Shown: one piece after another, positions 2,961-18,103 of the stretch
Layout: each line of letters begins with the position of its first letter
Position numbering within the stretch: the first letter of the stretch is position 1
The notes under the pieces: generated by a model
What the model was told of the DNA's origin: nothing
The model's database searches: none
The model's input: the letters and a program-made list of their open reading frames with translations, nothing else
Program-made: the position numbers and the translations under genes
DNA from: Yersinia entomophaga
GTDB lineage: Bacteria; Pseudomonadota; Gammaproteobacteria; Enterobacterales; Enterobacteriaceae
DNA: 64,000 nt
Assembly (NCBI RefSeq): GCF_001656035.1
Contig: NZ_CP010029.1
Coordinates: 3,346,074 to 3,410,073, forward strand
Reading direction: 5' to 3'

Positions 2961-3359
2961 TAGAATCTCCAATGAAGTATTTCATAGGTATACCGATCCT
3001 TAGGGGAATCGATAGATATTCCTGTATGTCGATAAGATGAGCTAGACGAAAAAGTACTGCTGCATCATTCGCTTATAGCTTATCTTATGCTTGCGTTGAT
3101 AAGAATTGCCCCCATACTTGTCCTCTCATAAGAAGTAAGGTGTTCATACACACCCCCAACAGCTCATCATCTCTCTAAGTTGCTCAACGTATTGAAAGCG
3201 AGTGCAGGCTTCCCTGACTTCAATGGTGCCAACGCTACTGACCCACGCTTCTTCGATTAAGTCAGTACAGAATCCTTTCGCATTGTGATTACTGAAGGGA
3301 TACATTTCATACTATGAGCCACTAACAACTCTTTGAAATCCCTGCGTTTTAACGTCATG

Positions 3360-3413
3360 TTAGCTTCTTAGCTTCTTAGCTTCTTAGCTTCTTAGCTTCT
3401 TAGCTTCTTAGCT
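3360..3413. repeat. octanucleotide tandem repeat, nearly 7 copies
   Basis: The 8-bp unit TAGCTTCT is repeated six full times without a mismatch, followed by a partial copy (TAGCT), ending about 195 bp before hxsD. Perfect short tandem arrays like this expand and contract by slipped-strand mispairing. Confidence 0.9.
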
Positions 3414-3561
3414 GTTTGCCGATTCAAGCGGCATATGAAAATCAGAAAACATTATTGATTATCATAGGATAAGCAGCATCTTTTTTCGGAATCGCCATTC
3501 AGATGCTAACATCCTGTAACATATTAATTAAATGGTGTATCCTCATTTCTATAGGAAAAAT

Positions 3562-3575
3562 CCGCTTTAAAGCGG
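3562..3575. promoter_or_regulatory. 14-bp perfect palindrome upstream of hxsD
   Basis: CCGCTTTAAAGCGG is a perfect inverted repeat ending 32 bp before the hxsD start, a typical place for a dimeric repressor or activator site. The regulator is unknown. It has no loop or T run, so a terminator is unlikely. Confidence 0.4.
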
Positions 3576-3607
3576 TTGCTGATTGTGATTATTAGTTTTG
3601 TGGGGCA

Positions 3608-3886
3608 ATGGCAATGTGCGAAAGGGTGTTAAAAAAAGATGTTTATTCTGAATGGGTTATACGCAATAGCCTGTACTGGATGACTTCGCTTACTCAGTGG
3701 AAACTCTGTGAAGATATATCCTCCTGGACAATCTCTTTTGAAAACGATAGTCCCGAATGCCTCTATGAGTTCGAGAGGCTGCTGAATGATTACACTTTGC
3801 GAGAAAAACTACAGCATAAAACTGGGGCGTTGAGAGATTCTATTGTCCATAAAGTGCTTCGCAGTGTCGATGAAAGGCTATCGTAA
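3608..3886 (+). CDS. hxsD: His-Xaa-Ser system protein HxsD
   Basis: A 92-residue soluble protein at the head of the Hxs operon. By size and position it is HxsD, the small partner protein of the His-Xaa-Ser system, whose biochemical role is not known. The C-terminal half (about residues 55-85) is helical and charged. It has two Cys (4 and 34) but no metal motif. The start is uncertain: ATG at 3608 and ATG at 3614 are both possible, and the ribosome binding site is weak. Its stop overlaps the hxsB start (TAATG), which implies translational coupling. The assignment leans mainly on the neighbours. Confidence 0.75.
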   Translation: MAMCERVLKKDVYSEWVIRNSLYWMTSLTQWKLCEDISSWTISFENDSPECLYEFERLLNDYTLREKLQHKTGALRDSIVHKVLRSVDERLS

Positions 3887-5274
3887 TGGAATTGATGCCA
3901 TTCAATTTTGACAGATTGCCTAATGGACAGGTGTTTATAAGCAACCTCGCTGGTTTTCATCACTTCATTAATGAGCAAGAGCTGCTTGATCTTTCTAATG
4001 AGCAAATCAATGCGGAGCAATCAAACGCACTAGAAAGCAAGCTGTTCATAACCAACGAAAGCTCATCAGGTATCGCTCCCTATGCTTTAAGTTCTGCTTT
4101 TGCAAAACGATTGATGAATGAACTGGCGATCAGGCCAATTTTCATGATTGTGCCCACATTACGTTGCGACCATACCTGCAAGTATTGTCAGGTCAGTAGA
4201 GCTTCAGTGAACGCCTCTGGTTATGATTTAGATCCCGCTCTCATCCCCGATATCATTTCTACTATCAAAAAACTATCAACTCCACCTTACAAGATAGAGA
4301 TACAGGGTGGAGAGCCACTCTTGCGGTTCGATTTAATTCAGTCTATCTATGAGCAATGTGCTGAAACGCTGGGAAGCACCGATTTTGAGATGGTGGTAGC
4401 TTCAAGCCTGTCTGTCTTGAATGAGGATATGCTTGAATGGTCGAGAGACAGGAACATAACGTTCTCTGTTTCGCTTGATGGTGAGGAAGTTGTTCACAAC
4501 AGTAATCGAATTCTTGGTCATGGGCTTGCGTACAGTAGAACAGTGTCAGGGGTAGAGGCTATCAAACAGTCTTTAGGCGCTGGTCGCGTTGCAACGGTTA
4601 CTACAGTTACTAAAGATCTCATTAGGCATCCTGAATCGATTGTCCAGGCTCACTTGTCTCTTGGCCTCAAGGACATGTTTATCCGACCTGTAAGTCCCTA
4701 TGGGTTTGCACAAAAAGCATCGTTCACATTTTCTATGAAGGAATACTTCAGTTTCTATGCCTCGTTGATAGATGAAATTCTTAAGATCAACAAAGAAGGG
4801 ATAAGGGTTGTTGAACATTCGGCCTCCATTCATCTGAAAAGGATCTTCAATCCCGGTTTTAGTGGTTATGCGGATTTAAAGTCGCCAAGCGGGGTCGTGC
4901 TTAACAGTATTCTTTTCAATTATGACGGTCGAGTATATGGTAGCGATGAGAGTCGTATGTTGCAGAAGGTGAACCCTGAAACGGAGTTCAGTGCGGGTGA
5001 GGTTAAAACGCTATCATTTTCTAAGAGTCCTTACTATAACGCAGTGTTGAGTTCATCGTTCAATTTTGCTCTGCCGGGCTGTGATACATGTGCATATCAA
5101 CCATTTTGCGGTGCAGATCCATGCCAGAACATAAGTGTACAGGGTGAGCCTGTCGGTGATAGGAGTCGTTCAACGTTTTGTCAGTATCACAAGGGGATGT
5201 TCAGGTATCTGATGAACTGCATCTCAGAAGGTGGTCAGAAGGCTGAGATGCTAAAAGGATGGGCATATGTCTGA
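3886..5274 (+). CDS. hxsB: radical SAM maturase HxsB
   Basis: A 462-residue radical SAM enzyme. The CxxxCxxC cluster motif (Cys94, Cys98, Cys101) would bind the 4Fe-4S cluster that cleaves S-adenosylmethionine, and IQGGEPLLR downstream is the usual SAM-binding glycine motif. The C-terminal part has a SPASM-like set of cysteines (399, 402, 408, 413, 432) for auxiliary clusters, as in enzymes that modify ribosomal peptides. The presumed substrate is the HxsA repeat protein encoded two genes downstream. It overlaps hxsC by 8 bases. Family assignment (HxsB, the 6-Cys form) comes from the SPASM-like tail and operon order. Confidence 0.88.
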   Translation: MELMPFNFDRLPNGQVFISNLAGFHHFINEQELLDLSNEQINAEQSNALESKLFITNESSSGIAPYALSSAFAKRLMNELAIRPIFMIVPTLRCDHTCKYCQVSRASVNASGYDLDPALIPDIISTIKKLSTPPYKIEIQGGEPLLRFDLIQSIYEQCAETLGSTDFEMVVASSLSVLNEDMLEWSRDRNITFSVSLDGEEVVHNSNRILGHGLAYSRTVSGVEAIKQSLGAGRVATVTTVTKDLIRHPESIVQAHLSLGLKDMFIRPVSPYGFAQKASFTFSMKEYFSFYASLIDEILKINKEGIRVVEHSASIHLKRIFNPGFSGYADLKSPSGVVLNSILFNYDGRVYGSDESRMLQKVNPETEFSAGEVKTLSFSKSPYYNAVLSSSFNFALPGCDTCAYQPFCGADPCQNISVQGEPVGDRSRSTFCQYHKGMFRYLMNCISEGGQKAEMLKGWAYV

Positions 5275-6379
5275 GGTTATTAGGAACGATATCTTTCATT
5301 TTGCTTCAAAAAAGAATGTGCCCACGGGGTTCTATCGGTTATGCAAACAAAAACCAATGAACCCTTTATTCTTTTTACCCAATTTACTGGTAGTTGCTGA
5401 AGGCAATAATGATGCCATTCAACCATGCTTTGATTTCTCTGTTATTAGCACTGAATTATATGAGTCAATTGAAGATGGAGATATTGGGATAATCAACAAT
5501 GGCAATATGATACGCGTAATTCTGTCCCGCAGAGCCAATCATAATACTGTCTTAGTAACGGAACGCTGCAATAACTTGTGTCTGTTTTGTTCGCAGCCAC
5601 CTAAGAAATCAAATGATGACTGGCTACTTACCCAATCAGCTCTTGCTATAGCTTCATTTGGTTTGGATGGAGTTGTTGGGGTCAGCGGTGGAGAACCTTT
5701 GCTGTATGGAGATGATTTCCTTCACTTCATTGATTTTATCATCGAGAATTCACCAGATACTGCTTTGCATGTTTTAACAAACGGACGCAAATTTTCTGAT
5801 ATCAACTTTACTCAGGAAATGGCAAAGCGAAGCAAAAAGATCAAAATCACCTTTGGTATCCCGCTCTACTCATCAAGACCACTTGTGCATGATCATCTGG
5901 TAGGGAATGATGGCGCATTTAATGAAACGGTTAAGGGGTTAATTAATGCAGGAAACTCAGGGATTAATATCGAACTTAGAGTTATTCCGACACTGGCTAA
6001 CTATACAGAATTGGATGATATTGTAGAGTTCGTTGGCCGTGTGTTCTCCAACATCAATCAGATTTCCCTTATGGGGCTGGAATCTATCGGTTGGGCACGA
6101 AAGAACTGGTCAACAATCTTCATTGAGCACAGCAGTTATAGTGAGAAAATAATCTCCGCCATAGACGCTGCGCACAGGTCAGGTATACCTCTAACAATTT
6201 TTAATTATCCTTTGTGTCATCTTCCCGAAAGAGCTTGGGAGCTTGCTGCTCAGTCGATCTCTGATTGGAAAAATTACTATCCTAAAGAATGTGATGAATG
6301 CACTCAGAAGTCTTCCTGTACTGGTTATTTCAGTTCCTCAACAGGCCGTTTTCATCAACCACCGAGACCAATTTTATGA
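5267..6379 (+). CDS. hxsC: radical SAM maturase HxsC
   Basis: A 370-residue second radical SAM enzyme of the Hxs system. The cluster motif is C101-NNL-C105-LF-C108 and the SAM-binding motif is SGGEPLL. A shorter C-terminal Cys group (342, 345, 351) may hold one auxiliary cluster. The N-terminal 90 residues have no obvious motif and may bind the substrate peptide. Its stop overlaps the hxsA start as ATGA, so enzyme and substrate are translated together. Two different radical SAM proteins acting on one short repeat protein is the hallmark of this system. The chemistry they perform is not known to me. Confidence 0.88.
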   Translation: MSEVIRNDIFHFASKKNVPTGFYRLCKQKPMNPLFFLPNLLVVAEGNNDAIQPCFDFSVISTELYESIEDGDIGIINNGNMIRVILSRRANHNTVLVTERCNNLCLFCSQPPKKSNDDWLLTQSALAIASFGLDGVVGVSGGEPLLYGDDFLHFIDFIIENSPDTALHVLTNGRKFSDINFTQEMAKRSKKIKITFGIPLYSSRPLVHDHLVGNDGAFNETVKGLINAGNSGINIELRVIPTLANYTELDDIVEFVGRVFSNINQISLMGLESIGWARKNWSTIFIEHSSYSEKIISAIDAAHRSGIPLTIFNYPLCHLPERAWELAAQSISDWKNYYPKECDECTQKSSCTGYFSSSTGRFHQPPRPIL

Positions 6380-7011
6380 AAAAATTTAATTTTGCTGCTC
6401 TACTTCCGGGATTTTTGGCGCTCAATAATTCTGTATGGGCAAGTGATTCATCCACCGGAGCAAGTGATTTGCCTGGTATGACTCTTAATGAACATGATTT
6501 AGTGATAGCCCCACTTAACACCGAAGTTCCATTCTACATTGCAGGGCATCGCAGTCATAGCTCCCATCGAAGCCATAGTTCTCACCGATCATCATCAGGT
6601 GGCGGGTACTATGGTGGCAGCACTCCTTATTATCCAAAAACATACAGCTCACCAAGCTCATCTGGGTCTTCAAGTTCAGGAACAAGTTCCTCATCGTCCT
6701 CTTCCTCTGTGCGTTCGCTTCGTTCTAACGACAATAACAACTCTACTACTACGAATTCTGTTGGAACTACAGAAGCTAACCGTGCAAGTAATGGGCTGAC
6801 TTCTGGTACAGAGAAGCGTAAGCGCTTAATCATGCGGGTTCAATTCGCTTTGCTGGACAAAGGTTATTACAACGGGAATATTGACGGCATAATGGGGCCT
6901 TCGACAAGGCAGTCAATAAAAAATTATCGCATTGCGAACGGACTACCAGTACCCTCAAGTGAAACCTTGGATACACAGTTGTTAAATTCATTGAGTATTT
7001 TAGCTCGATAA
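6376..7011 (+). CDS. hxsA: His-Xaa-Ser repeat protein HxsA
   Basis: A 211-residue protein that is the likely target of HxsB and HxsC. Residues 1-22 form a signal peptide ending in VWA-S, so the protein is probably exported. Residues 58-72 are five tandem His-Xaa-Ser units (HRS HSS HRS HSS HRS), followed by a Gly/Tyr stretch and a Ser-rich linker to about residue 125. From about residue 146 to the end is a peptidoglycan-binding-1 type domain (AL.DKGYYNGNIDGIMGPSTR). The domain order suggests a modified His/Ser segment displayed on the cell wall in the periplasm. The ATG at 6376 overlaps the hxsC stop; an upstream in-frame start would lie inside hxsC and would spoil the signal peptide. Confidence 0.9.
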   Translation: MKKFNFAALLPGFLALNNSVWASDSSTGASDLPGMTLNEHDLVIAPLNTEVPFYIAGHRSHSSHRSHSSHRSSSGGGYYGGSTPYYPKTYSSPSSSGSSSSGTSSSSSSSSVRSLRSNDNNNSTTTNSVGTTEANRASNGLTSGTEKRKRLIMRVQFALLDKGYYNGNIDGIMGPSTRQSIKNYRIANGLPVPSSETLDTQLLNSLSILAR

Positions 7012-7079
7012 ATTAAGTATATTTAAAATTGTTCACTTTAACATTAACTTGTATGAATATATATTTCAGAGGCGATTAA

Positions 7080-8714
7080 ATGTCAGTCAGTTATAACATA
7101 TATAGAATGCCATATAAGAGTCTTCCAGAATTGACAAAAAAAATCATTAAAGAAGGGCTTGTCGAACAAAAAACTATTCTACATCAATCTTATCAACTCA
7201 AATTTTATTTTTCTGATAAGTTAAAAGGAAATGAAGTATGGTGGTGGGATGTATTTAGTGATTTCTTTAATGAAGAAATTGAAAAGCCTCATAATATATT
7301 CTATTTTGGCCTGCTAATAGGATTTAAAGAAAAGGACCCTGAGAATTGCTATCTTATCAGTCTTGGTAAATCACATTTTTATCTCAGCAAGTTTATTGAA
7401 GCAGACTTTGGGCTGAATGTGGCAATGCGTATAGCTAATGATGAAAATATTTTGCTCAAGAAAAGTAGATTCTTTTGTGGGGGAAAGAGTCAGGAGGCAT
7501 CGTCATATTCAAAGTTTGTGCAAGGATCATATTTTCCTGGCGAATCCATCGAACATCTTAAAACAAAAGCCAAAGAAACTGACAAGTGGGGATGTAATAA
7601 TATAACTTTTTCTGATTCAATACAGCTAAGTTTAGATGGTGCCCCTACTGCATTAGTAGATGTCTTCAATGATATTGATTCTTCGTTGGCAACCAAAGAG
7701 AAAATCGAATTTCCTAAATCGGAAAAAATCACTGACGAGTCAAAGATAGATGAGCTTGATAATTATCTACTTCAATCGATCATTAAAGATGATGTAAATG
7801 TTATTATAGATGAGATTCAATCTTTTGGTGCCTCTATTGTAATTAATAATTCTTTGACATTTTTTAAATTGCACACAAAAGTTGAGGGGAGTGGAAAGTA
7901 TCTTCAATCAGCAGATAAGGTTAACGATATAAAAATAACAGATGTTAAGCAATTTATAAAAAACAACGACATAAAGGATATCAATAAAGTTTTTGTTAAG
8001 ATAACTAATGAAAATAACAGTGGTCATACGGCCTCGCTAAAAGAAATATTGAGTATTACTTATAGCGATGGCAGTGAGCACTACTTCCTTAAGAAGGGAG
8101 GGTGGAGTCGATTTAACTCTGCCTTTATGAAGTATTTGTCTACCTCTTTAGCCAGTATAAAATTTGAGGTTAAAGATGCTCTAAAGGAAGACGAATTCAA
8201 AGCATGGCAAGCTGAAAAAATAAAACAAATCGAAGAAGGAACTTCTAAAGACAAATTAGAATATAGAGAGTACTATTTTAATGAAAAGATGTCTGTTGAG
8301 AAAGGTTATATACTTCTAGATCGCCAGCTCAAAAAAATACCATCCTTACGTGATGATGGAAAGGACTACAATGTTGAAGTTGCAGATCTTTATAAAAATG
8401 GAGAGATTATTGCTGTAAAGATATCAGATAAACCGCATGATCTAATTTATAATATTGAGCAGTCAAAAACTACAATTCAAACTATAGTAAGAGGAGTAGT
8501 AAAATTTGAAGAGAAAATTACTGATGTGGTTTTATGGATCTCAACTACTACAAAAGCCAAAAAATTGATTGACATCAATTCTATTCAATTTTTATTAGCG
8601 GTTCAAACTTGGAAGGAAGTTGTTGAAGGATTTAATTTGAAACCAAAGATATATTATTCGCATCACGAAAAACCCAAAAAGAAAAAGGAAAAGAAAAAGC
8701 CAAAAAACGGTTGA
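7080..8714 (+). CDS. TIGR04141 / DUF6119-like sporadic protein
   Basis: A 544-residue soluble protein with GAGG seven bases before its ATG. Its length, its opening (YNIYRMPYKS) and motifs such as the FGLLIGFKEKDPENCYLISLG region around residues 75-97 agree with my memory of TIGR04141, a family described only as sporadically distributed and sometimes listed as DUF6119. It ends in a long Lys-rich tail (KPKKKKEKKKPKNG), which could bind nucleic acid. Members are found in islands next to restriction or other defence genes, so an anti-phage role is plausible but not shown. The gene is AT-rich, unlike hxs next door, and is convergent with the ABC-3C operon. Confidence 0.6.
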   Translation: MSVSYNIYRMPYKSLPELTKKIIKEGLVEQKTILHQSYQLKFYFSDKLKGNEVWWWDVFSDFFNEEIEKPHNIFYFGLLIGFKEKDPENCYLISLGKSHFYLSKFIEADFGLNVAMRIANDENILLKKSRFFCGGKSQEASSYSKFVQGSYFPGESIEHLKTKAKETDKWGCNNITFSDSIQLSLDGAPTALVDVFNDIDSSLATKEKIEFPKSEKITDESKIDELDNYLLQSIIKDDVNVIIDEIQSFGASIVINNSLTFFKLHTKVEGSGKYLQSADKVNDIKITDVKQFIKNNDIKDINKVFVKITNENNSGHTASLKEILSITYSDGSEHYFLKKGGWSRFNSAFMKYLSTSLASIKFEVKDALKEDEFKAWQAEKIKQIEEGTSKDKLEYREYYFNEKMSVEKGYILLDRQLKKIPSLRDDGKDYNVEVADLYKNGEIIAVKISDKPHDLIYNIEQSKTTIQTIVRGVVKFEEKITDVVLWISTTTKAKKLIDINSIQFLLAVQTWKEVVEGFNLKPKIYYSHHEKPKKKKEKKKPKNG

Positions 8715-8975
8715 TTAAAAATATTGAATTTCCTTATCGAATAATTTCAGGAGAGAAAAGAACATTCTAATTATCACATTATAAATATTATTTGAGTGTA
8801 TTGATGGATTTAAAATCTTATGTGGTGGTGTTATGTGAAACTTACACCACCATTGTTTATTGAACATTTTTAAGAACTTTCAAAATTTACTCTGGATGTT
8901 GGTTATAAACCCCTTAGCTGATAAGCTGTGGCACTATTTATGCAATCATAGTGCCCTCATAATCTCTGTACAATT

Positions 8976-10796
8976 TTATTTGAAATGAATTAAACCATAA
9001 TTGCCTCTTAATTCATTATCAACAAGAGTAAAGTTCGTCATTTCTCTGTCAAGCCAATAAGACTCTTCAATATGCTCTAACAGTATTATTTGGAAACCAC
9101 CATGAGACCGCATTTTCTCAACAAAAGAATTAATTTCATTTAGGGCTGCATCAAGACTTGCAAAGTCATCAGTTTTTTTACCAGCAGTACTAAAATATGG
9201 AGTGCTGGGCTGGTCAATGACTAAGAATCGTGGAACCCACGGTACTTTTCTATCTCTTACCAATTCGTGAAGTGCAAGGAAATAAGCTACATGTACATAC
9301 ATATAGTTAGAAGCACTTCCAATATCTATCATTTTTTCAACTTGATTTTTATTTATCAAATCAAGTGTTTTTTTTGCCTTGTTGAATATCGGAGTTGCAT
9401 CCTCAAATCCTTTTAAAGGCATCCGTTTGAATATTTCCTTTATTTTTTCGTTCAGTAAACTCAATGTATATTCTTTAAAGGCATTATTATCTGTTATCTT
9501 GCTTTCTAACTCATTAATTTTAGTAGTTATCTTTTCTATAGTATCAGTATAATCATATTTAGGGAGAACAACTATCCGTTTAATTTCAGAGCTGAGTTCA
9601 CCCATGAACCGATAAAGCTCGATTGGTGTGATTTTTTCATCACTAACAGTTGCAAGTTTTTTACTCAAGGATGATATTTTAAGTTCTAACTCTTTTCTCT
9701 TAGCATTTGTTTTTGATATGAGTGAGTTTTGTCCTTTTTCGGCTATAGCCTTTTTTATCTCTGAGCTTTGGTTCAATAAGGATTTAATGATTGAATAGAT
9801 GTTTTTTGTATATAATATTTCGCTATAATTATCATCTAAATATTTAGCTATTAAAAGAGAGTCTTGGTTGTCTTTTAAAAACTTCTTATATTCAGTATTT
9901 GTTTCTATATATTCATTAATGTCTGTCAGTTCTTTTTTTAAGAGGAAAAGTTCTTTTTCAATTTTTGTTCTTTCATTAATTGCTGGGATTTCGTTTATAT
10001 TCTTGTAATTAACTATCGCTTTCAAATTTTCAAGTTTATCACTTACAGTTGGTTCATTCTTGCTGTTTCCACTTATTAAACCAAAATAATACGCCCTGTC
10101 GTATAGTGATTCTATTTCACTTTCGAAATTGAAATAAGAGTCTTTGCTAGCCGACTGTTTATATTCGATGCGAGCAAGATTCCTTTGTAATTCTTCTAAC
10201 CGCGTTCTCATTATCATAGTTTCGGCGTTTTCACTGCCAAGAGCCATGTCAAAGGTTCGGTCAATACGCTCTCTTGTCTTTAAATCAGAGATTTTCGAAT
10301 AAAGATGTTCTGAAGAGGTTAGTGTTGTTTGATCTATAAAGCAATGCGGGATAAAATATCTATAGGATACTTTTGACCCTTGTTGTATGAATCTACCACC
10401 ATAAGGGATTTTTAGAGAACTATTAATACCAAACTCATAATTCAGATGTTCTTTTAAAACATCCTTTTTGATATTGTTAATAGGGATTTGTGGAATGTCT
10501 CCATTTTTGTCAAAGTAAACTAGATCATCTTCTTCAAAGTGTGTCGCTTTTCTACAAATAGTGAAATATTTACCGTTTATACTTAATCTAATCCCATACC
10601 AATTTACAAAATTATCGACATTTGTTTTTGATATACCATCAGATGATGAGGATAAAAGGCAATAATCAATGATAGCCAGTATGGAGGATTTCCCTTTGCC
10701 AGAATCACCTGTTATTACATTTACCTTATTTTCCTCAAGTTCTAAATTCCTCAAGGTTGAATCAATTTGCCATATTAAAATATTAGTAATCTGCAT
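8976..10796 (-). CDS. ABC-3C ATPase (DUF3732-type, SMC/Rad50-like)
   Basis: A 606-residue ATPase. The Walker A motif is GDSGKGKS at residues 30-37. The Walker B-like stretch FLVIDQPSTPYF begins at about residue 524 and has DQP in place of the usual DEP. IILLEH near residue 570 supplies the switch His. The middle 350 residues are Lys/Glu/Leu-rich coiled coil, as in Rad50/SMC proteins. This layout is the DUF3732 ATPase of ABC-three-component conflict systems. It is the last gene of the minus-strand operon and its start overlaps the middle-component stop by one base (TAATG). In these systems it is expected to sense an invader and license the effector. Confidence 0.82.
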   Translation of the reverse strand: MQITNILIWQIDSTLRNLELEENKVNVITGDSGKGKSSILAIIDYCLLSSSSDGISKTNVDNFVNWYGIRLSINGKYFTICRKATHFEEDDLVYFDKNGDIPQIPINNIKKDVLKEHLNYEFGINSSLKIPYGGRFIQQGSKVSYRYFIPHCFIDQTTLTSSEHLYSKISDLKTRERIDRTFDMALGSENAETMIMRTRLEELQRNLARIEYKQSASKDSYFNFESEIESLYDRAYYFGLISGNSKNEPTVSDKLENLKAIVNYKNINEIPAINERTKIEKELFLLKKELTDINEYIETNTEYKKFLKDNQDSLLIAKYLDDNYSEILYTKNIYSIIKSLLNQSSEIKKAIAEKGQNSLISKTNAKRKELELKISSLSKKLATVSDEKITPIELYRFMGELSSEIKRIVVLPKYDYTDTIEKITTKINELESKITDNNAFKEYTLSLLNEKIKEIFKRMPLKGFEDATPIFNKAKKTLDLINKNQVEKMIDIGSASNYMYVHVAYFLALHELVRDRKVPWVPRFLVIDQPSTPYFSTAGKKTDDFASLDAALNEINSFVEKMRSHGGFQIILLEHIEESYWLDREMTNFTLVDNELRGNYGLIHFK

Positions 10797-11242
10797 TATA
10801 ATCTAACTCCACAAATGTCATATATATTGTGTGGTTCTTCTAATAATAAACGTGCAACATTTATAGATGCTGCCTGTATTTTTACGGCTCTTTTGCCAAT
10901 AAACGGGATCGCATTATCTAATATTAACTTGTTTTTAAATGCTAATTTGCCGTGTTCTAATTCAGCTATTCCATTTTCAAGGCACAATGAAACACAATTA
11001 ACTGAGGATGGAAGGAAATTATAGAATCTTTTATTTATGGATACTATTATTTCGGGCTTGGTTAATAGTAGATCTTGAAAAGATAGTGTATTGGTTCTCT
11101 TGTGGGCAAGGTAATCTAAGCTTTTTTTATGAAATATAATTGGTAAAATTAGCATTGCATTGCTTATTTCAATATTTGATGCTATTGATAACACCTCTTG
11201 CAAAGAGAATATACCCAAAAGCTCATTGTTATATATTTTCAT
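10796..11242 (-). CDS. ABC-3C middle component
   Basis: A 148-residue protein between the effector and ATPase genes, overlapping the first by four bases (ATGA) and the second by one. It has no catalytic motif. Its size, all-helical look, the LPIIFHKKSLDYLA segment and the C-terminal region (FIGKRAVKIQAASINVARLL) fit the middle component of ABC-three-component systems, which is thought to link ATPase and effector. The tight coupling suggests fixed stoichiometry with the ATPase. The assignment depends strongly on the neighbours. Confidence 0.7.
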   Translation of the reverse strand: MKIYNNELLGIFSLQEVLSIASNIEISNAMLILPIIFHKKSLDYLAHKRTNTLSFQDLLLTKPEIIVSINKRFYNFLPSSVNCVSLCLENGIAELEHGKLAFKNKLILDNAIPFIGKRAVKIQAASINVARLLLEEPHNIYDICGVRL

Positions 11243-12402
11243 TTATAGACTGACTCCCAGTTTTGAAGCCATCCTATTTTGGGCTTATCTGAAAGGAGCA
11301 AGAACGTTCCTGTAGTCATAGATTTAGGTAATTGATTTTTATCCAACACAATATTACAGTTTCCTGTCAATTCAGTATAGACAGAGAAGGCTTTATTAAG
11401 ATGATCTTCATTTATTTCTGTAAAACGGCTTCGTATATACGTTGCTGAATGACGTGATTGCCATTCATCAAGCGCTTTTAGATATATTAGTCTTTCTTCT
11501 TGAGTTGTTAAATCTCCAGAGCTTTGCAATTTTTGAATGAAAGCTTCTGTTTTGGCCATTTCATTTATATATTTTACGATTGAATCGCTATTCAAATCCA
11601 AATCTTTGAGTTGTTTGTAAGATATCTTTGATTCAACGTTAGTTGGGTATGCAGATTCAAAATCGTAGTATTGGTCGAAATTATTTATACAATTTCTTGA
11701 AATTTGAATAATCCTATCTATTCCCAAATTATTTCGAAAATCATCATAACTTATATTTATTTTGGTGTGATTTTTAACCAAATCATATTTGTGTTTAAAA
11801 AAAGCACCTGAAATATAATTAAAAGCATCATCTATTTTATCATCAGGGATTGCTAATGTTTTTAGTAATGTTTTTATTTGGCGGATGATCCCATCTTCGC
11901 TATGTTGAAAACTTATACTATTAAATAAACGTTTAGAAGAATTGCTATCGAGTGAGTTTATGATAGAAATATACTTATAGAGGTCATCTGACTTATTTTT
12001 ATGATCTTGTTCTATCTTTTCTATTTCATCTTTTATTTTTTCAATGTCCTTAGTGTCGTTAGTCAAAAGTTGCACGATACCAGGCTCTAAGGTAAGACCT
12101 TTGTTAGTGTAAAAAATAAGGCTAATGCTTTTGTCGCCTATGGTCTTAATCGCCTCTGACCAATTATATAATGTTTTTCATAAGTCTATGTCTTTATTAG
12201 TTATATTAGACTTGTTAATTGAATGTTTAACTTGAACCAAAGTTTTATGACCCTCGATGCTCTCAAGATGGAGATCGTCATAAACTTCAATCCCAATGTG
12301 TTCTTCTGGTTTAAGCTCTAAGGCATGTTTTAAAGCAACGTAATCTTGATAGGTAAAACCTATTGAATTTTTGTCAGCATTAGTTTTTTCAAAGAAATCC
12401 AT
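11239..12402 (-). pseudogene. ABC-3C effector gene interrupted by in-frame TGA
   Basis: Read through one TGA codon (12178-12180), this is a continuous 387-codon gene. The N-terminal part (GFTYQDYVALKHALEL, IEVYDDLHLES, then LVQVKHS) looks like the PD-(D/E)xK-type nuclease (CAP4/DUF4297-like) that opens many ABC-3C effectors. The C-terminal part (from about residue 110) is the helical ABC-3C C-terminal domain. The TGA falls at residue 75, in ..KDIDL-stop-KTLYNWSEA.., where a Trp (TGG) is the natural reading. Frame is kept on both sides, so a single G-to-A change explains it. A restart at ATG 12075 would give a 278-residue protein without the nuclease part. I chose ATG 12402 (MDFFEK) over 12438 because family members begin shortly before the GFxYQDxVA motif. 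Broken gene, sequencing error or read-through cannot be told apart here. Confidence 0.7.
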
Positions 12403-12652
12403 ATGGTAGCCCACTAAGGAAACAAGCAATGAAAGCATAAAAAAACATCAGTATCTTTTTTTCACCATATCAAACACTAAAAACATATGGAAGCATACGT
12501 ATCAAAGTTTAGTTATATAACCTTATGTTTTTATACTGGTTTTATGTACATGTGCGCTTTCAATCCGATGAGAATGTTTTAGCTAAGGGGCATTCGTCAG
12601 CATATGGGCTTTCCAGGCTATCCCTATCCTTCTTGCTAATCCCCTGTATCAG

Positions 12653-13883
12653 TCAAGCAGCGATAGCTTTAGCTCTTTGAGTTTGAACGTAATCACTCCA
12701 CCATTGCATCAAACTCTGTCGCTCTATCAGATATTCTGCACGATTGTATGCTGCGATAATTTCATCTTTTTTTTGAGTGGGCAAGCGCTGCCTCAAGAAC
12801 TTCAGATCTGAACTTACCGGATTCTTCTGCCGCTGTTCTTGCAATAGAACGCATACCGTGAGCTACAAGCTCACCTCCAAATCCCATTCGGATGATAGCT
12901 GCATTGGCGGTTTGTTCATGCATATGATTAAGCGGCGCTTTAATGCTGGGGAAAACCCATTCTCTATGCCCACTTATTGGTTTCATTAATTCAAGAATGC
13001 GCAAAGCTTCTTTACTCAAAGGAACTTTGTGAGGTTTTTTCATTTTCATGAAATCAGCAGGAATGTTCCAAATACTGTTGGTTGTATCAATATCAGACCA
13101 CCTTGCGCGAACGGCTTCACCCGGACGAACCCATGTCAACAATTGCCATTCAATTAGCATACGTGTTTCCAACCGGATTGACGCATTCGTCAAAGATTCC
13201 ATAAACCTTGGCAATTCGCTTGGGGGAAGGGCAGGCATATTTTGCTTTTTGGGTTTACTGAATCTTTGGCCAAGGTTGTCAGCCGGGTTGAACTCAATAA
13301 GTTCTTCAGTGGCTGCCCAACGGAAGATTTCATTCAGACGGGAAATGATGCGGCGTAGAGTTTCCAATACGCCTCGATGCTCAATAGGATCAAGGTGTTG
13401 TTTTAAGAGCTTAGGTCGGATCTCATTGATAGGGATATTACCCAGACCAGGAAAGACATTTCTCTCTAAGCTGCGCCAGATGTCTGCTGCATGGTCTTGT
13501 GAGATACCTGAGGTCTTTACCTTCTCATCTAACCATTTCCGCGCTACGGCTTGGAGAGTGTGCTCAGTAGCACTCTTTAATGCCTTCGCCTTATTGTTGT
13601 TATGGACTTGGGGATCAACACCATTTGCCAGAAAGGAGAGATATTCGTCTCGTAAGGCTCTGGCCCTTGCAAGGGTAAGGTGAGGATATGTCCCAAGGCT
13701 CATTTTGGTTCTTTTCTTGCTCACTGGTACTGCATACCTGAAATACCAATTTTTCTTGCCTCCTTTTGCCAAAGGAGCGATTCGTAGAATCAAACCATCG
13801 CCGTCAAATAAGTTGATTTCTTTATCGGCTGGCTTAGTGCTTTTGATTTCAGTGTCAGTGAGCTTCTTAGCGATTTTTGCCAT
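12653..13883 (-). pseudogene. P4-type tyrosine integrase, frameshifted
   Basis: This is the integrase of the ssrA-inserted element. The first 373 codons (13883 down to 12762) show the P4 integrase N-terminal domain (LTDTEIKSTKPADKEINLFD) and catalytic residues Arg253 (WVRPGE), His342 and Arg345 (HGMR) and His369 (LAH). After LAHS the frame is lost in a run of eight A (minus strand). Seven A would continue as LAHSKKDEIIAAYNR, which carries the catalytic Tyr and is present in the next frame down to 12653. As written, the product lacks the nucleophilic Tyr and is inactive. GAGGG precedes the ATG. It reads away from ssrA, as usual for this integrase group. Confidence 0.85.
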
Positions 13884-13983
13884 TTGGGACCCTCGATTTT
13901 TGGACCCTTCTTAGTGGGTCCCATTCAGGGTGCCATAACTCGTAGTTCTCAGCAATTCTCACTGGACGACAATAGACGTAAAA

Positions 13984-14013
13984 AAGCCCGCAGAGCTTGT
14001 GCTGTGCGGGCTT
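13984..14013 (-). terminator. ssrA terminator carried by the island
   Basis: AAGCCCGCA pairs with TGTGCGGGCTT around a short loop, with an A run on the left that becomes a U run on the minus strand. It lies 34 bases past the tmRNA 3' end and is similar but not identical to the hairpin at 154-181. The island therefore brings its own terminator along with the restored tmRNA end. Confidence 0.85.
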
Positions 14014-14047
14014 AGTAGACTTCATTGTACTTCAAACAACTAAAAAG

Positions 14048-14428
14048 TGGTGGAGCTGGGGGGATTTGAACCCCCGTCCGAAATTACTACGCCGTCGGCA
14101 CTACATGCTTAGTCCAGTCATTACATTCGCCGGTTAGCTGCGGACGGACACGCCACTAACAAACTATCCTGATTGGGTTTAACGCTTTCACCCCAGGCAA
14201 GGTGTCCACGCGATCTCTTTTGGGTTTGACCTCTCTTGATCCCCGTCCTAAGAGCGGAGGCTAGGGAGAGAGGGAATCTTCAGTTTCTTAGGCTGATTAA
14301 GCTGCTAAAGCAGCAGATTCGTATTGCGAGTCGTTTGCAATTATTTTTTTTGCGGTTTTTTACGAGGCCTCCGCACCTCGGCATGCACCTTGGGTTTCGC
14401 GAATCCCGTCGAATCCAGAATCAGCCCC
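14048..14428 (-). ncRNA. ssrA: tmRNA (transfer-messenger RNA)
   Basis: The 381-base gene starts with GGGGCTGATTCTGGATTCGA and ends with the tRNA-like arm closing in CCACCA. It rescues stalled ribosomes together with SmpB, which is encoded just upstream on the same strand. The tag reading frame, at 14338 down to 14297, codes ANDSQYESAALAA and then TAA, ending in the usual ALAA degradation signal. The tRNA-Ala-like 3' arm (GTTCAAATCCCCCCAGCTCCACCA region) is intact although the island has inserted here. The 3' end is the integration site of the neighbouring element. Confidence 0.97.
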
Positions 14429-15119: not shown

Positions 15120-15554
15120 ATGCCACAGATTAGTCGCTCTGCATTAGTGCCATTCAGTGCAGAACAAATGTACCAACTGGTTAATGATGTTTGCTCTTAC
15201 CCAGAGTTCTTGCCTGGCTGCACGGGGAGCCGGGTGCTTGACGCTTGCGATAATGAAATGACGGCGGCGGTAGATGTTGCCAAAGCGGGTATCAGCAAGA
15301 CGTTTACCACGCGTAATACGCTAACGGATAACCAAAGTATCAACATGCAGTTGGTTGACGGACCTTTCCGTAAGCTGATGGGCGGTTGGCATTTCACGCC
15401 ATTAAGCCCTGATGCCTGTAAAGTGGAGCTGCATCTGGATTTTGAATTTACTAACAAGCTGATTGAATTGGCTTTTGGCAAAGTGTTTAAAGAGCTAGCG
15501 GGGAATATGGTGCAAGCATTCACCCAGCGTGCAAAAGAGGTCTACAGTGCCTGA
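15120..15554 (+). CDS. ratA: ribosome-associated toxin RatA (START-like)
   Basis: A 144-residue START/SRPBCC-fold protein. [20 protein letters not shown] and [11 protein letters not shown] are close to E. coli RatA (YfjG), and the C-terminal [18 protein letters not shown] is typical. In E. coli it was reported to bind 50S subunits and block subunit joining; it is also related to the coenzyme Q10-binding proteins (Coq10), so the real role is debated. AGGA lies upstream of the ATG at 15120; longer upstream reading frames lack family similarity. The stop overlaps the start of rnfH. Confidence 0.93.
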
Positions 15555-15831
15555 TCTTTACGTTGAGGTCGTTTATGCCTTGCCAGAGCGTCAGTATGTT
15601 CGGAAGGTGAGCCTCGCGGAAGGCAGCACGGTTGAGCAAGCGATTGAGGCCTCGGGGCTTTTAGCGTTGCGTACTGATATTGATCTGCAAAAAAACAAAG
15701 TGGGGATTTACAGTCGCCCCGTAAAATTGGGTGACAGAGTTAATGATGGCGATAGAGTCGAAATTTATCGTCCGTTAATTGCTGATCCCAAAGAGTTACG
15801 TCGAATCCGCGCTGAAAAAGCAAAAAAATAA
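15547..15831 (+). CDS. rnfH: RnfH/RatB ubiquitin-like family protein
   Basis: A 94-residue beta-grasp (ubiquitin-like, UPF0125) protein. The block [20 protein letters not shown] and the end [19 protein letters not shown] are nearly identical to E. coli RatB/YfjF. The start is taken as GTG at 15547, with AAGAGG six bases before it and overlapping the ratA stop by eight bases; an ATG at 15529 is also in frame but lies far inside ratA. It is called the antitoxin partner of RatA by neighbourhood, but E. coli work did not support that. A GGCGC hairpin follows at 15832-15848. Confidence 0.92.
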
Positions 15832-15857
15832 GGCGCGTTGTGCGCCTCACTTTTTAT
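15831..15857. terminator. terminator after rnfH
   Basis: AGGCGC and GCGCCT pair around a four-base loop (GTTG), followed after three bases by a T run. It closes the ratA-rnfH unit. Confidence 0.65.
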
Positions 15858-15986
15858 CAGCCCTGAAGCATGACGGATAAAGCCAGTCTGATTGAAGATC
15901 AGCGCCAATGGCATTTATCCGTTAGCGCTATATCGAAGGTGATTCTCTATCTTCCTTCTCTACCACTAGCATGATCGACGAAAAAA

Positions 15987-16328
15987 TTAATTTCCGCTCA
16001 GCGCTGGTTCATTTTTAATATCAGTCAGAACACCGCTGCTGTTGAACGTCAGGGTCAGCGTCTGCTGTGTAGCCTTTTCGTGTCCCGGCTGCTGGCGGAA
16101 TACGTAGAACCAGGTTTGAGTTCCAAACGGGTCCTGCAGCATCGGAGTACCTAGTGTGTATGCCACCTGTTGCTGCGTCATACCTTTATGAATTTTGGAT
16201 ACATCGTTAGGTGACAGGTAGTTACCCTGATTAATATCAGGCCGATAGACCACCTTTTCCAGCGTGGAACAACCCGCGGTAAGCATCATTAGCATTACAG
16301 CGGCGGCAGTCAGCATTTTACAGCGCAT
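15987..16328 (-). CDS. bamE: outer membrane assembly lipoprotein BamE
   Basis: A 113-residue lipoprotein of the BAM complex that inserts beta-barrel proteins in the outer membrane. The signal peptide ends in the lipobox LTAGC, so Cys20 would be lipidated and the mature protein anchored in the outer membrane facing the periplasm. The conserved [16 protein letters not shown] and [17 protein letters not shown] blocks match E. coli SmpA/BamE. The start at MRCKML (16328) matches the usual length; three extra codons are possible upstream. It is divergent from ratA-rnfH and downstream of recN on the same strand. Confidence 0.95.
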
Positions 16329-16441
16329 AGTAATCACATTCCTTTAGGGCATAGGATGACGATGATAATAGACCTTGCAGCAGTTGGAAACCTTTACAAG
16401 GCTTCAATATGACCTCCTGAATGCAAAAAAGTTGAGCTTTT

Positions 16442-18103
16442 TTATGCAGCAAGCAGCTCTTTCGCGTTTGCCAGGGTATTTTTCGTCACTTCGCTACCGC
16501 CTAACAGGCGCGCTAATTCTTGCAAACGGGCTTTTTTATCCAGCTTATGCATCTGTGTTTCGGTTTCTGCGCCATCCGTTTGTTTACTGACAAAGAAGTG
16601 TTGATGGCCACAACCTGCAACCTGCGGAAGATGGGTCACACACATGACCTGAGTGGATTCCCCCAACTGACGCAACAGTTGACCGACAATCGCCGCCGTT
16701 GGCCCGCTGATACCGACATCTACTTCATCGAAAATGAGTGCTGGCGTATCCATTTTGCGAGCAGTAATAACCTGAATAGCTAATGCGATACGCGATAACT
16801 CGCCACCGGAGGCAACTTTAGCCAAAGGTTGCAAAGGTTGCCCTGGATTTGTGGTCACACTAAATTCTATACGGCTTGCCCCTTCTGCGCTGAGGTGTTC
16901 CGGCTCGAAATGCACACCAATGGCAAATCGGCCATGCGGCATAGAGAGCTGGTGCATGCTTTCGGTAATCAAGGTGGCCAGCTCTTCTGCATAATGCTGA
17001 CGAGCCTGATGTAGCTGATTTGCCAATGCCAATGCGCGCTGATAGTGAAGATTGACCGTTTCGCTTAACTGTTCCTGATCGCTTTCCTGTTGCGAAAGGA
17101 GTTGTTGTTCATCCAGTAGCTGTTGATGAAGCTGAGGAAGTTCTTCCGGCGCAATGTGGTGCTTCCGAGCCAGATTAAGCTGGCGTGATAGTCGCTGTTC
17201 CAGTTCATATAGGCGATTCGGATCCATATCCAACTTTTCACCATAATGGCGCAATTCATCGCTAGCTTCGCTAATCTGGATCGATGCTTCTTCCAGCATA
17301 TTCAATAAATTGTTGAACTGCTCATCCATGCCTGCCAGTTCGGTAATATGCTGTTTGGCGGTATAAAGCTGGCTGAGAATATTTTGTTGTTCATCATCAG
17401 AAAGCAACTGTAGAGCCTGCTGGCTGATAGAAATCAACTGACCGCTGTTAGCCAGACGCTTGTATTCGGCATCGATCTGCTCATATTCGCCCTGCACCGG
17501 TGCGAAGGCATTCAGCTCTTTAAGATGATATTGCAGCAGTTGATGACGAGCATCACGCTCAAGGGATTGCTTCTGATGCAAGGCCAGCGAACGGCAGCTC
17601 TGATGCCACAGTTGGTAGGCGGTTTTCATTTCAGCTAGCAATGCCGGTTGATCGGCATAGGCATCCAGTAGCTGTTTCTGGTGATCTGATTTCAATAACA
17701 GCTGGTGAGCATGTTGGCCATGAATTTGAATCAGGAGTTGCCCCAGCTCTCTTAGTTGAGAAAGAGGAACCGCAGTGCCGTTGATAAAGCCCCGCGAACG
17801 GCCATCGACCCCAATAGCGCGACGCAGCAGACATTCATTGCTGTCATCCAACTGGTGATGTTCAAGCCATGCGCGAGCAGTTGGGGTGTCTGCTAATGAG
17901 AAACGAGCGCAGATGTCGGCTCTGGAAGCGCCTAGACGCACCATGCTGCCATCTGCACGGCTACCCAAGCATAATCCTAATGCATCAATAGCAATAGATT
18001 TGCCTGCGCCGGTTTCGCCAGTAATTGCGGTTAATCCGGGCTGAAAATCAATTTCTAACTCGCGCACAATAGCAAAATTACTGATGGTCAGTTGGGCCAG
18101 CAT
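16442..18103 (-). CDS. recN: DNA repair protein RecN
   Basis: A 553-residue SMC-like ATPase that acts early in double-strand break repair. Walker A is GETGAGKS at residues 29-36, the ABC signature is around [15 protein letters not shown] and Walker B is [13 protein letters not shown], separated by a long coiled coil rich in Gln, Leu and Glu. The start at [10 protein letters not shown] (18103) has AGGAG upstream and gives exactly the E. coli length; extended upstream reading would run through the LexA sites. Three LexA-type boxes lie directly upstream, so expression is SOS-induced. Confidence 0.96.

Follow-up and report, generated by a model that had tools for sequence, protein, structure and literature searches.

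Here, we describe an operon of the His-Xaa-Ser (Hxs) system in a 64,000-nucleotide stretch of the Yersinia entomophaga genome (contig NZ_CP010029.1, positions 3,346,074 to 3,410,073 of the forward strand). We call this whole stretch the window and give feature coordinates as positions within it. The open reading frame (ORF) map of the window places four genes, hxsD, hxsB, hxsC and hxsA, in that order on the + strand, within an island at ssrA. The Hxs family is already known; what is new is its mobility, the edges of the cassette, its neighbours, the anatomy of its enzymes and the constraint on its repeat. We thus present a known family as a well-defined mobile cassette with sharp, testable chemistry. 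The relevant part of PMC9062424 calls HxsB previously annotated and credits the motif to Haft and Basu (2011), a gene list in PMC8446631 includes hxsA-D of a Pseudomonas aeruginosa, and a passage of PMC6537148 mentions a putative Hxs system for peptide modification in Vibrio parahaemolyticus. In the open-access literature, to which our search was mostly confined, we found no chemistry or role for Hxs.

The operon, its substrate and its spread

The first gene, hxsD (3608–3886, +), encodes 92 residues, or slightly fewer from an alternative start at the second ATG (3614), as RefSeq annotates the Escherichia coli copy. It is followed by hxsB (3886–5274, +), for a radical S-adenosylmethionine (SAM)/SPASM maturase of 462 residues with a predicted N-terminal domain resembling the recognition element (RRE) of ribosomally synthesized and post-translationally modified peptide (RiPP) systems, by hxsC (5267–6379, +), for a second radical SAM enzyme of 370 residues, and by hxsA (6376–7011, +), for a 211-residue HxS-repeat protein that is predicted to be exported. 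An earlier note, made from the letters of this DNA alone, had described a complete, translationally coupled Hxs operon. The junctions are as it had read them: TAATG between hxsD and hxsB, an 8-base overlap between hxsB and hxsC, and ATGA between hxsC and hxsA. The search with HxsA-D family models that it had proposed placed all four proteins above the curated NCBIfam equivalog cut-offs, with 96.6 bits against 50 for HxsD (TIGR03976), 562.6 against 370 for HxsB (TIGR03978), 402.3 against 267.9 for HxsC (TIGR03977) and 162.7 against 121.65 for HxsA (TIGR03979, scored on the form that begins at 6298). Assignment to the Hxs family is thus secure.

HxsA begins with a hydrophobic N-terminus, continues with the period-3 units HRS HSS HRS HSS HRS and ends in a peptidoglycan-binding domain, PG_binding_1 (PF01471; 27.2 bits against a Pfam cut-off of 23, 4.6e-6). 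The single substrate with five HxS units and a wall-binding domain that the note had made out is therefore borne out. The five tandem units, the presumed modified segment, occupy 6547–6591 (+), HxsA residues 58–72, and their H and S columns are invariant in a 25-row substrate alignment.

To see this operon among its relatives, we scanned 97 sources: the window, the copy in its own genome and 95 others (L numbers denote loci). The 80 genome loci among them are the best 80 of at least 578 confirmed stretches. The order D-B-C on one strand is found in 90 of the 97, so the arrangement is not a matter of chance. HxsD was not found in L085, L094 and L095, the first two of which start at or inside hxsB; a separate hxsC is absent from L035, L036 and L066; and the order is D-C-B in L096. 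An HxS-rich ORF lies beside the hxs genes in 95 of the 97 sources, and none was found for L083 and L094, both short contigs.

Substrates come in two main layouts, a long HxsA downstream of hxsC and a short HxsA2-type protein upstream of hxsD with its repeat at the C-terminus. By our own sorting, 53 are downstream and 42 upstream, with exceptions both ways (short and downstream in L091–L093, long and upstream in L048, L071 and L075). PG_binding_1 is present in 21 of 25 chosen long substrates; the ends of the three long upstream ones diverge most in the substrate alignment. A hydrophobic 12-residue segment occurs in 72 of 76 distinct substrate N-terminal parts, against 5 of 94 HxsD, 9 of 97 HxsB and 17 of 97 HxsC proteins, by a hydropathy count, rather than a signal-peptide predictor, on stretches of differing length.

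An array contains from 3 to 10 units and usually has 5 or 6. Ser takes the third position in 369 of 370 units drawn from His-phased arrays, a count that is biased by the picking of ORFs for H-x-S/T repeats and by the requirement for His at every third residue, so that its only informative parts are the preference for Ser over Thr and the presence of Ser in every His-phased unit. Nearly all units are free of Cys, which takes the middle position in 2 of 370. Both Ser codon families are mixed in 42 of 81 arrays. The near-invariance of Ser and the mixing of its codons suggest selection on Ser at a fixed spacing from His, and an Ala two residues before the array in 53 of 64 cases may mark a short recognition motif ahead of the row. 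With this sharp substrate and repeat rule, the Hxs system has become testable.

Among 8000 candidates scored, 4389 proteins are HxsB relatives at E<=1e-30. A DNA match to the operon occurs in 153 of 5426 E. coli genomes, always on the chromosome, and covers at least 80% of the operon in 146. HxsB matches are found in 439 of 72,556 plasmid records, 332 of them from Klebsiella and 346 predicted to be conjugative. In an order-level sample around the window species, 7 of 295 species genomes, the window's own included, have HxsB above cut-off; none of 14 control genomes does. Phage records yielded 4 matches in 50,697, one being an annotated Leptospira phage with the order hxsA-D-B-C, and IMG/VR yielded 13 loci.

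A methyltransferase-like gene lies near the short-substrate operon in 10 loci from 6 HxsB groups, directly after hxsC in six (L047, L049, L053, L055, L070 and L076) and upstream in four (L035, L036, L040 and L044, the first two carrying the same protein). Methyltransf_25 exceeds the Pfam cut-off in three of the five proteins scanned (L076, L070 and L047), and in two scanned with NCBIfam no family reached its cut-off.

A mobile cassette and its neighbours

The operon moves as a mobile cassette with defined edges. The cassette (3513–7013, +) consists of an upstream region of about 95 bp plus hxsDBCA, and is the block common to otherwise unrelated elements; we took its edges from the ends of BLAST matches at 73–99% identity in a comparison of 14 loci. 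Matches run from 3513–3516 to 7012–7015 in P2-like prophages (L102, L106, L107 and L086), Klebsiella plasmids (L002 and L108), islands (L103 and L104) and a Buttiauxella locus (L007). Other matches cover 3494–7011 (L097), 3505–7011 (L020), 3385–7011 (L084) and 3400–8698 (L005), and one, 3886–7013 (L085), is cut at its start by the contig end. Because the same edges appear in islands, in P2-like prophages and in IncFIB plasmids of Klebsiella, we take the travelling unit to be the roughly 95 upstream bases and the four genes, about 3.5 kb in all. The presence of this block in prophages, plasmids and islands offers ready comparison strains and a clear functional hypothesis.

In the window, positions 3360–14070 are 99.8–99.9% identical to E. 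coli ECC-1470, in two blocks split by an insertion sequence (IS) element in the E. coli copy, and 3170–3413, adjoining a repeat of different length, are 97.1% identical. Core DNA beyond ssrA is only about 70% identical to three comparable E. coli loci (L097, L098 and L100). This difference between island and core flanks marks a recent transfer between genera.

A perfect 8-base tandem repeat, TTAGCTTC, is present in 6.8 copies at 3360–3413, about 195 bases upstream of hxsD. Its copy number is at least 15 in the island of E. coli ECC-1470, which is otherwise 99.8% identical, but 3 in L084 and below 2 in L004 and L031; this hypervariable repeat might vary expression.

The setting in an ssrA island, also claimed in the note, holds, as an integrase gene (12762–13883, −; PRK09692, 398.8 bits, under the cut-off of 434) adjoins the tmRNA gene ssrA (14048–14428, −; ARAGORN), the insertion site. 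At 373 residues, the integrase ORF falls short of the length of its E. coli relatives (1230 bases in L098), and an ORF in another frame, 12653–12844, may be its C-terminal part.

Directly after hxsA lies a DUF6119/TIGR04141 protein gene (7080–8714, +), a frequent downstream neighbour of hxsA in islands. It takes this place in several islands of two diverged lineages (in L100 at 15145–16752) and was not found beside the P2-prophage copies and two plasmid copies of hxs. The junction of hxsA with DUF6119 is held over at least 80% in 29 of 5426 genomes, and the pair may have been selected together. Further on are ABC-three-component (ABC-3C, Lamassu-like) defence genes (8976–12438, −), with PADLOC matches to LmuB (6.4e-85) and LmuA (1.4e-16); in Pfam, DUF3732 exceeds its cut-off and CTD7, at 23.8 bits, is under its cut-off of 27.6. 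The LmuA-like gene (11239–12438) is in two pieces in the window and a single gene of 1164 bases in E. coli L098; because of this split, the defence system of the window may be inactive.

Of the 153 E. coli loci, we chose 11 and read their annotation: eight islands (L001, L097–L101, L103 and L104) and three P2-like prophages (L102, L106 and L107). A known defence system lies near hxs in four of the eight islands, a count over chosen loci without a control group. These are Pycsar (PycTM 6.1e-62, PycC 3.6e-115) with ABC-3C in L001, Gabija (GajA 1.3e-274, GajB 6.5e-205) in L097 and ABC-3C in L098 and L099. The other four (L100, L101, L103 and L104) carry TIGR04141 and ParB-type genes, and PADLOC gave only weak matches for the proteins scanned (five of L100, one each of L103 and L104). 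About 10 kb from hxs, the E. coli region of L104 also carries a yhhB cyclophane maturase cluster with 2-oxoglutarate/Fe and HExxH-type hydroxylases (1–2092).

In prophages, hxs sits between ogr and gene D. The junction of hxsA with gene D is held over at least 80% in 29 of 5426 genomes, and half of the six close IMG/VR loci (L085, L086 and L088) show this arrangement. In nine sampled P2-like prophages that lack hxs, the same slot is empty in four, holds a TIR/bSEFIR protein in one (L110, 1.4e-44) and holds other ORFs in four. The slot ORFs of E. coli L113, L114, L115 and L117 are candidates for new prophage accessory functions; those of L113, L115 and L117 had no PADLOC or Pfam match.

The two radical SAM enzymes and HxsD

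HxsB and HxsC carry different Cys sets, in agreement with the note: residues 94/98/101 and 399/402/408/432 in HxsB, conserved in 54–55 of 55 aligned rows, and 101/105/108 and 317/342/345/351 in HxsC, conserved in 44 of 44. The structure model of HxsB, made from the 55-row alignment (predicted local distance difference test, pLDDT, 91.6), opens with three strands followed by three helices; a radical SAM barrel comes next, and the chain closes with a SPASM-like region. The order in residues 1–80 agrees with that of an RRE, taken as three strands and then three helices, so that HxsB may have such a domain. The best structural match, Protein Data Bank (PDB) entry 5why, covers nearly the whole chain (model residues 5 to 453, a range that gives end points only), followed by the anaerobic sulfatase-maturating enzyme (anSME), ChlB, TigE and SuiB. 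We take 5why and 5wgg to be the sactisynthase CteB; the entry title refers to thioether bonds in sactipeptides.

Asp354 of HxsB, invariant in 55 of 55 rows, falls on the catalytic Asp277 of anSME in a profile alignment with residues counted from the ruler. According to passages of PMC5682303 and PMC5491770, anSME binds auxiliary cluster (Aux) I through Cys 255, 261, 276 and 330 and Aux II through Cys 317, 320, 326 and 348, and the SPASM enzymes compared in PMC5491770 retain three of the four Aux I Cys. HxsB has the Aux II set, and the 55 rows contain no conserved Aux I Cys, only a stray Cys at 353 (1/55) or 413 (15/55). It looks like a natural SPASM enzyme with Aux II ligands and the anSME Asp position but without a conserved Aux I Cys, which bears on the function of Aux I.

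The solved relative nearest to HxsC by sequence is SkfB (1.5e-12). HxsD, set against the same RRE order, is confidently modelled with AlphaFold2 (pLDDT 95.0) as strand-helix-strand-strand-long helix and has no close solved fold.

Proposed mechanism, rival explanations and known systems

From the observed gene content, coupling, repeat constraint, cassette mobility and Cys and Asp patterns, we put forward as the best overall explanation, still a tentative one, a complete protein-modification system on a mobile cassette, whose HxsA is modified, exported and held at the wall to give an envelope trait. HxsA would be synthesized as a chain that bears a Sec signal and consecutive His-Xaa-Ser units. 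Cytosolic HxsB would take up the unmodified chain through its RRE-like domain and a hydrophobic-Ala-x motif before the repeat, and its 5'-deoxyadenosyl radical would abstract hydrogen at the beta-carbon of every Ser in the row. The likeliest outcome would be a bond between the His ring and Ser (i to i+2), so that a His-Ser cyclophane of three residues recurs from unit to unit. HxsC would add a further oxidative step, with HxsD as a small partner. Matured HxsA would leave by Sec and stay in the periplasm, anchored through its peptidoglycan-binding domain. There it would provide cells that carry the element with an envelope trait, directed most likely at phages or competing elements.

Confidence falls along this path. 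That the repeat is modified at all is very highly probable, and export with docking at the wall is likely, judging from the domains of HxsA. Radical chemistry at the Ser beta-carbon is somewhat favoured; a His-Ser crosslink as the product is plausible, though just short of an even call, and an anti-phage or exclusion role is rather unlikely. The operon, its coupling, the island, the two enzymes and the wall-binding substrate that the note had described all stand and export is consistent, while the modification of the repeat, metal binding and antagonism that it had also suggested are unproven.

Several points weigh against our explanation. The role is its weakest step, a general cargo role being about as likely as protection, and the proximity of hxs to defence genes in four of eight chosen islands is an association only, without a matched control. 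Hxs has no PADLOC model of its own, its best similarity being to pVip, a weak radical SAM match (8.7e-7). Broken E. coli copies exist, with IS insertions or an hxsC frameshift. Among the best 25 of 59 NCBIfam families compared, HxsB falls far below the cut-offs of cyclophane enzymes (YhhB 41.5/445, AmcB 36.5/425, GrrM 30.9/310), and it scores higher with PapB, a ranthipeptide maturase (73.1/340), and with anSME (TIGR03942, 54.1/349.45). The Asp position and these scores argue for formylglycine over a His-Ser bond. The analogy with SPASM enzymes may mislead, since HxsB, unlike those compared, has no conserved Aux I Cys. The bias in the repeat count counts here too, and mixed-codon arrays come mostly from related long-HxsA lineages, short substrates being nearly all TCN.

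The rival that survives best, and one to be taken seriously though we would not bet on it, is that the cassette is general cargo on mobile DNA, serving stress, competition or wall physiology, with defence genes nearby because cargo sites are shared. Such sites do mix functions, and one plasmid copy adjoins a heat-resistance locus (of 1867 plasmid records with a match anywhere in that stretch, just 10 cover 80%). Most loci outside the Enterobacterales gave no match to our small set of mobile-element and defence queries, the exceptions being integrase relatives in L043 and L047, a ParB relative in L056 and a recombinase relative in L022. Against this stands the presence of the same block in three element classes, including a phage slot that elsewhere holds a bSEFIR defence gene. 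We favour a mobile-element trait, since the cassette is common to phages, plasmids and islands and at times lies beside anti-phage genes; the three element classes, the prophage accessory slot and the nearby defence genes suggest a protective role, against phages or rival elements.

HxsA could instead become a protein-derived redox or metal centre, its row prepared by the radical SAM steps and, in some hosts, finished in the periplasm by a MauG-like di-haem enzyme; we consider this unlikely. Genes for a MauG-like protein and a small companion follow hxsA in seven loci, one in each of seven HxsB groups, and a His at every third residue could bind metal. One member of each family was scanned (TIGR03981, 632.3 bits against 340, in L027; TIGR03982, 182.4 against 40, in L022), and since both are NCBIfam Hxs-associated families, their link to Hxs was already known. 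By tblastn, however, the MauG-like gene is present in only 7 of 109 sources, many of them short loci, and in no Enterobacterales. By eye, we recognized no gene for metal regulation or uptake in the 24 listed clusters of recurrent neighbours, and the only metal-related genes seen near Enterobacterales cassettes are fec and chrA, on two plasmids.

More doubtful still is that HxsB acts as an anSME, converting the Ser of each HxS to formylglycine and so leaving a series of aldehydes fixed to the wall, or adducts of these with the adjacent His. This reading and that of a His-Ser bond both begin with hydrogen abstraction at the Ser beta-carbon. Formylglycine leaves the His at i-2 and the second radical SAM enzyme unexplained, the anSME score of HxsB is far below the cut-off, and its Aux I Cys are not conserved. 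We rank the His-Ser bond higher because the two residues are conserved as a pair at i and i+2, a spacing for which PMC11002830 gives precedents with either partner. Least probable is a wall-held, bacteriocin-like antagonistic peptide: many peptides made by radical SAM enzymes are antibacterial, but the long substrates carry a wall-binding domain, and inspection by eye of the recurrent neighbour clusters revealed no immunity gene, peptide exporter or leader protease, general major facilitator superfamily (MFS)-type transporters recurring at scattered places near hxs loci.

In its boldest form, our explanation makes Hxs an envelope barrier encoded by mobile elements, in which a stiff row of His-Ser crosslinks (or aldehydes) on peptidoglycan blocks phage DNA entry, adsorption or incoming elements. 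This is improbable as it stands; if true, HxsA would be an anti-phage effector that is covalently matured, anchored to the wall and made by two radical SAM enzymes, of which HxsB would rely on the Aux II cluster alone within its SPASM fold.

Compared with known systems, the operon shows no difference from the Hxs system of NCBIfam (TIGR03976–03979, 03981, 03982 and NF038296 for HxsA2), with the same four proteins, or from the E. coli operon, where gene order is identical and the genes are annotated under hxs names. Among enzymes, anSME shares with HxsB the fold, the QGGEP and DGP..HN.NR stretches, the Asp277 position and the Aux II Cys; HxsB differs in its lack of conserved Aux I Cys, its extra N-terminal domain, its repeat substrate and its failure to reach the TIGR03942 cut-off. 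CteB forms Cys thioethers, whereas the HxS substrate is nearly without Cys, and Asp354 of HxsB aligns with a His in CteB. Hxs shares its islands, or in P2-like prophages its D-ogr slot, with anti-phage cargo such as Gabija, Pycsar, ABC-3C/Lamassu-like systems and bSEFIR, yet it is without a PADLOC model and its anti-phage role is putative. In classical RiPP systems the leader is cleaved and a small product released; HxsA keeps its C-terminal wall-binding domain. The triceptide enzymes, or three-residue cyclophane-forming enzymes (3-CyFEs) (MscB, HaaB and YhhB), are radical SAM/SPASM proteins that, in the account drawn from part of PMC11002830, act on aromatic-x-Cbeta motifs at i to i+2, with Ser used in MscB and His in HaaB and YhhB. 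By the rule given there, the H-x-S row matches this motif in 369 of 370 units; the Hxs system differs from the triceptide systems in an HxsB that scores under the listed cyclophane cut-offs, a second radical SAM enzyme, HxsD and long wall-binding substrates.

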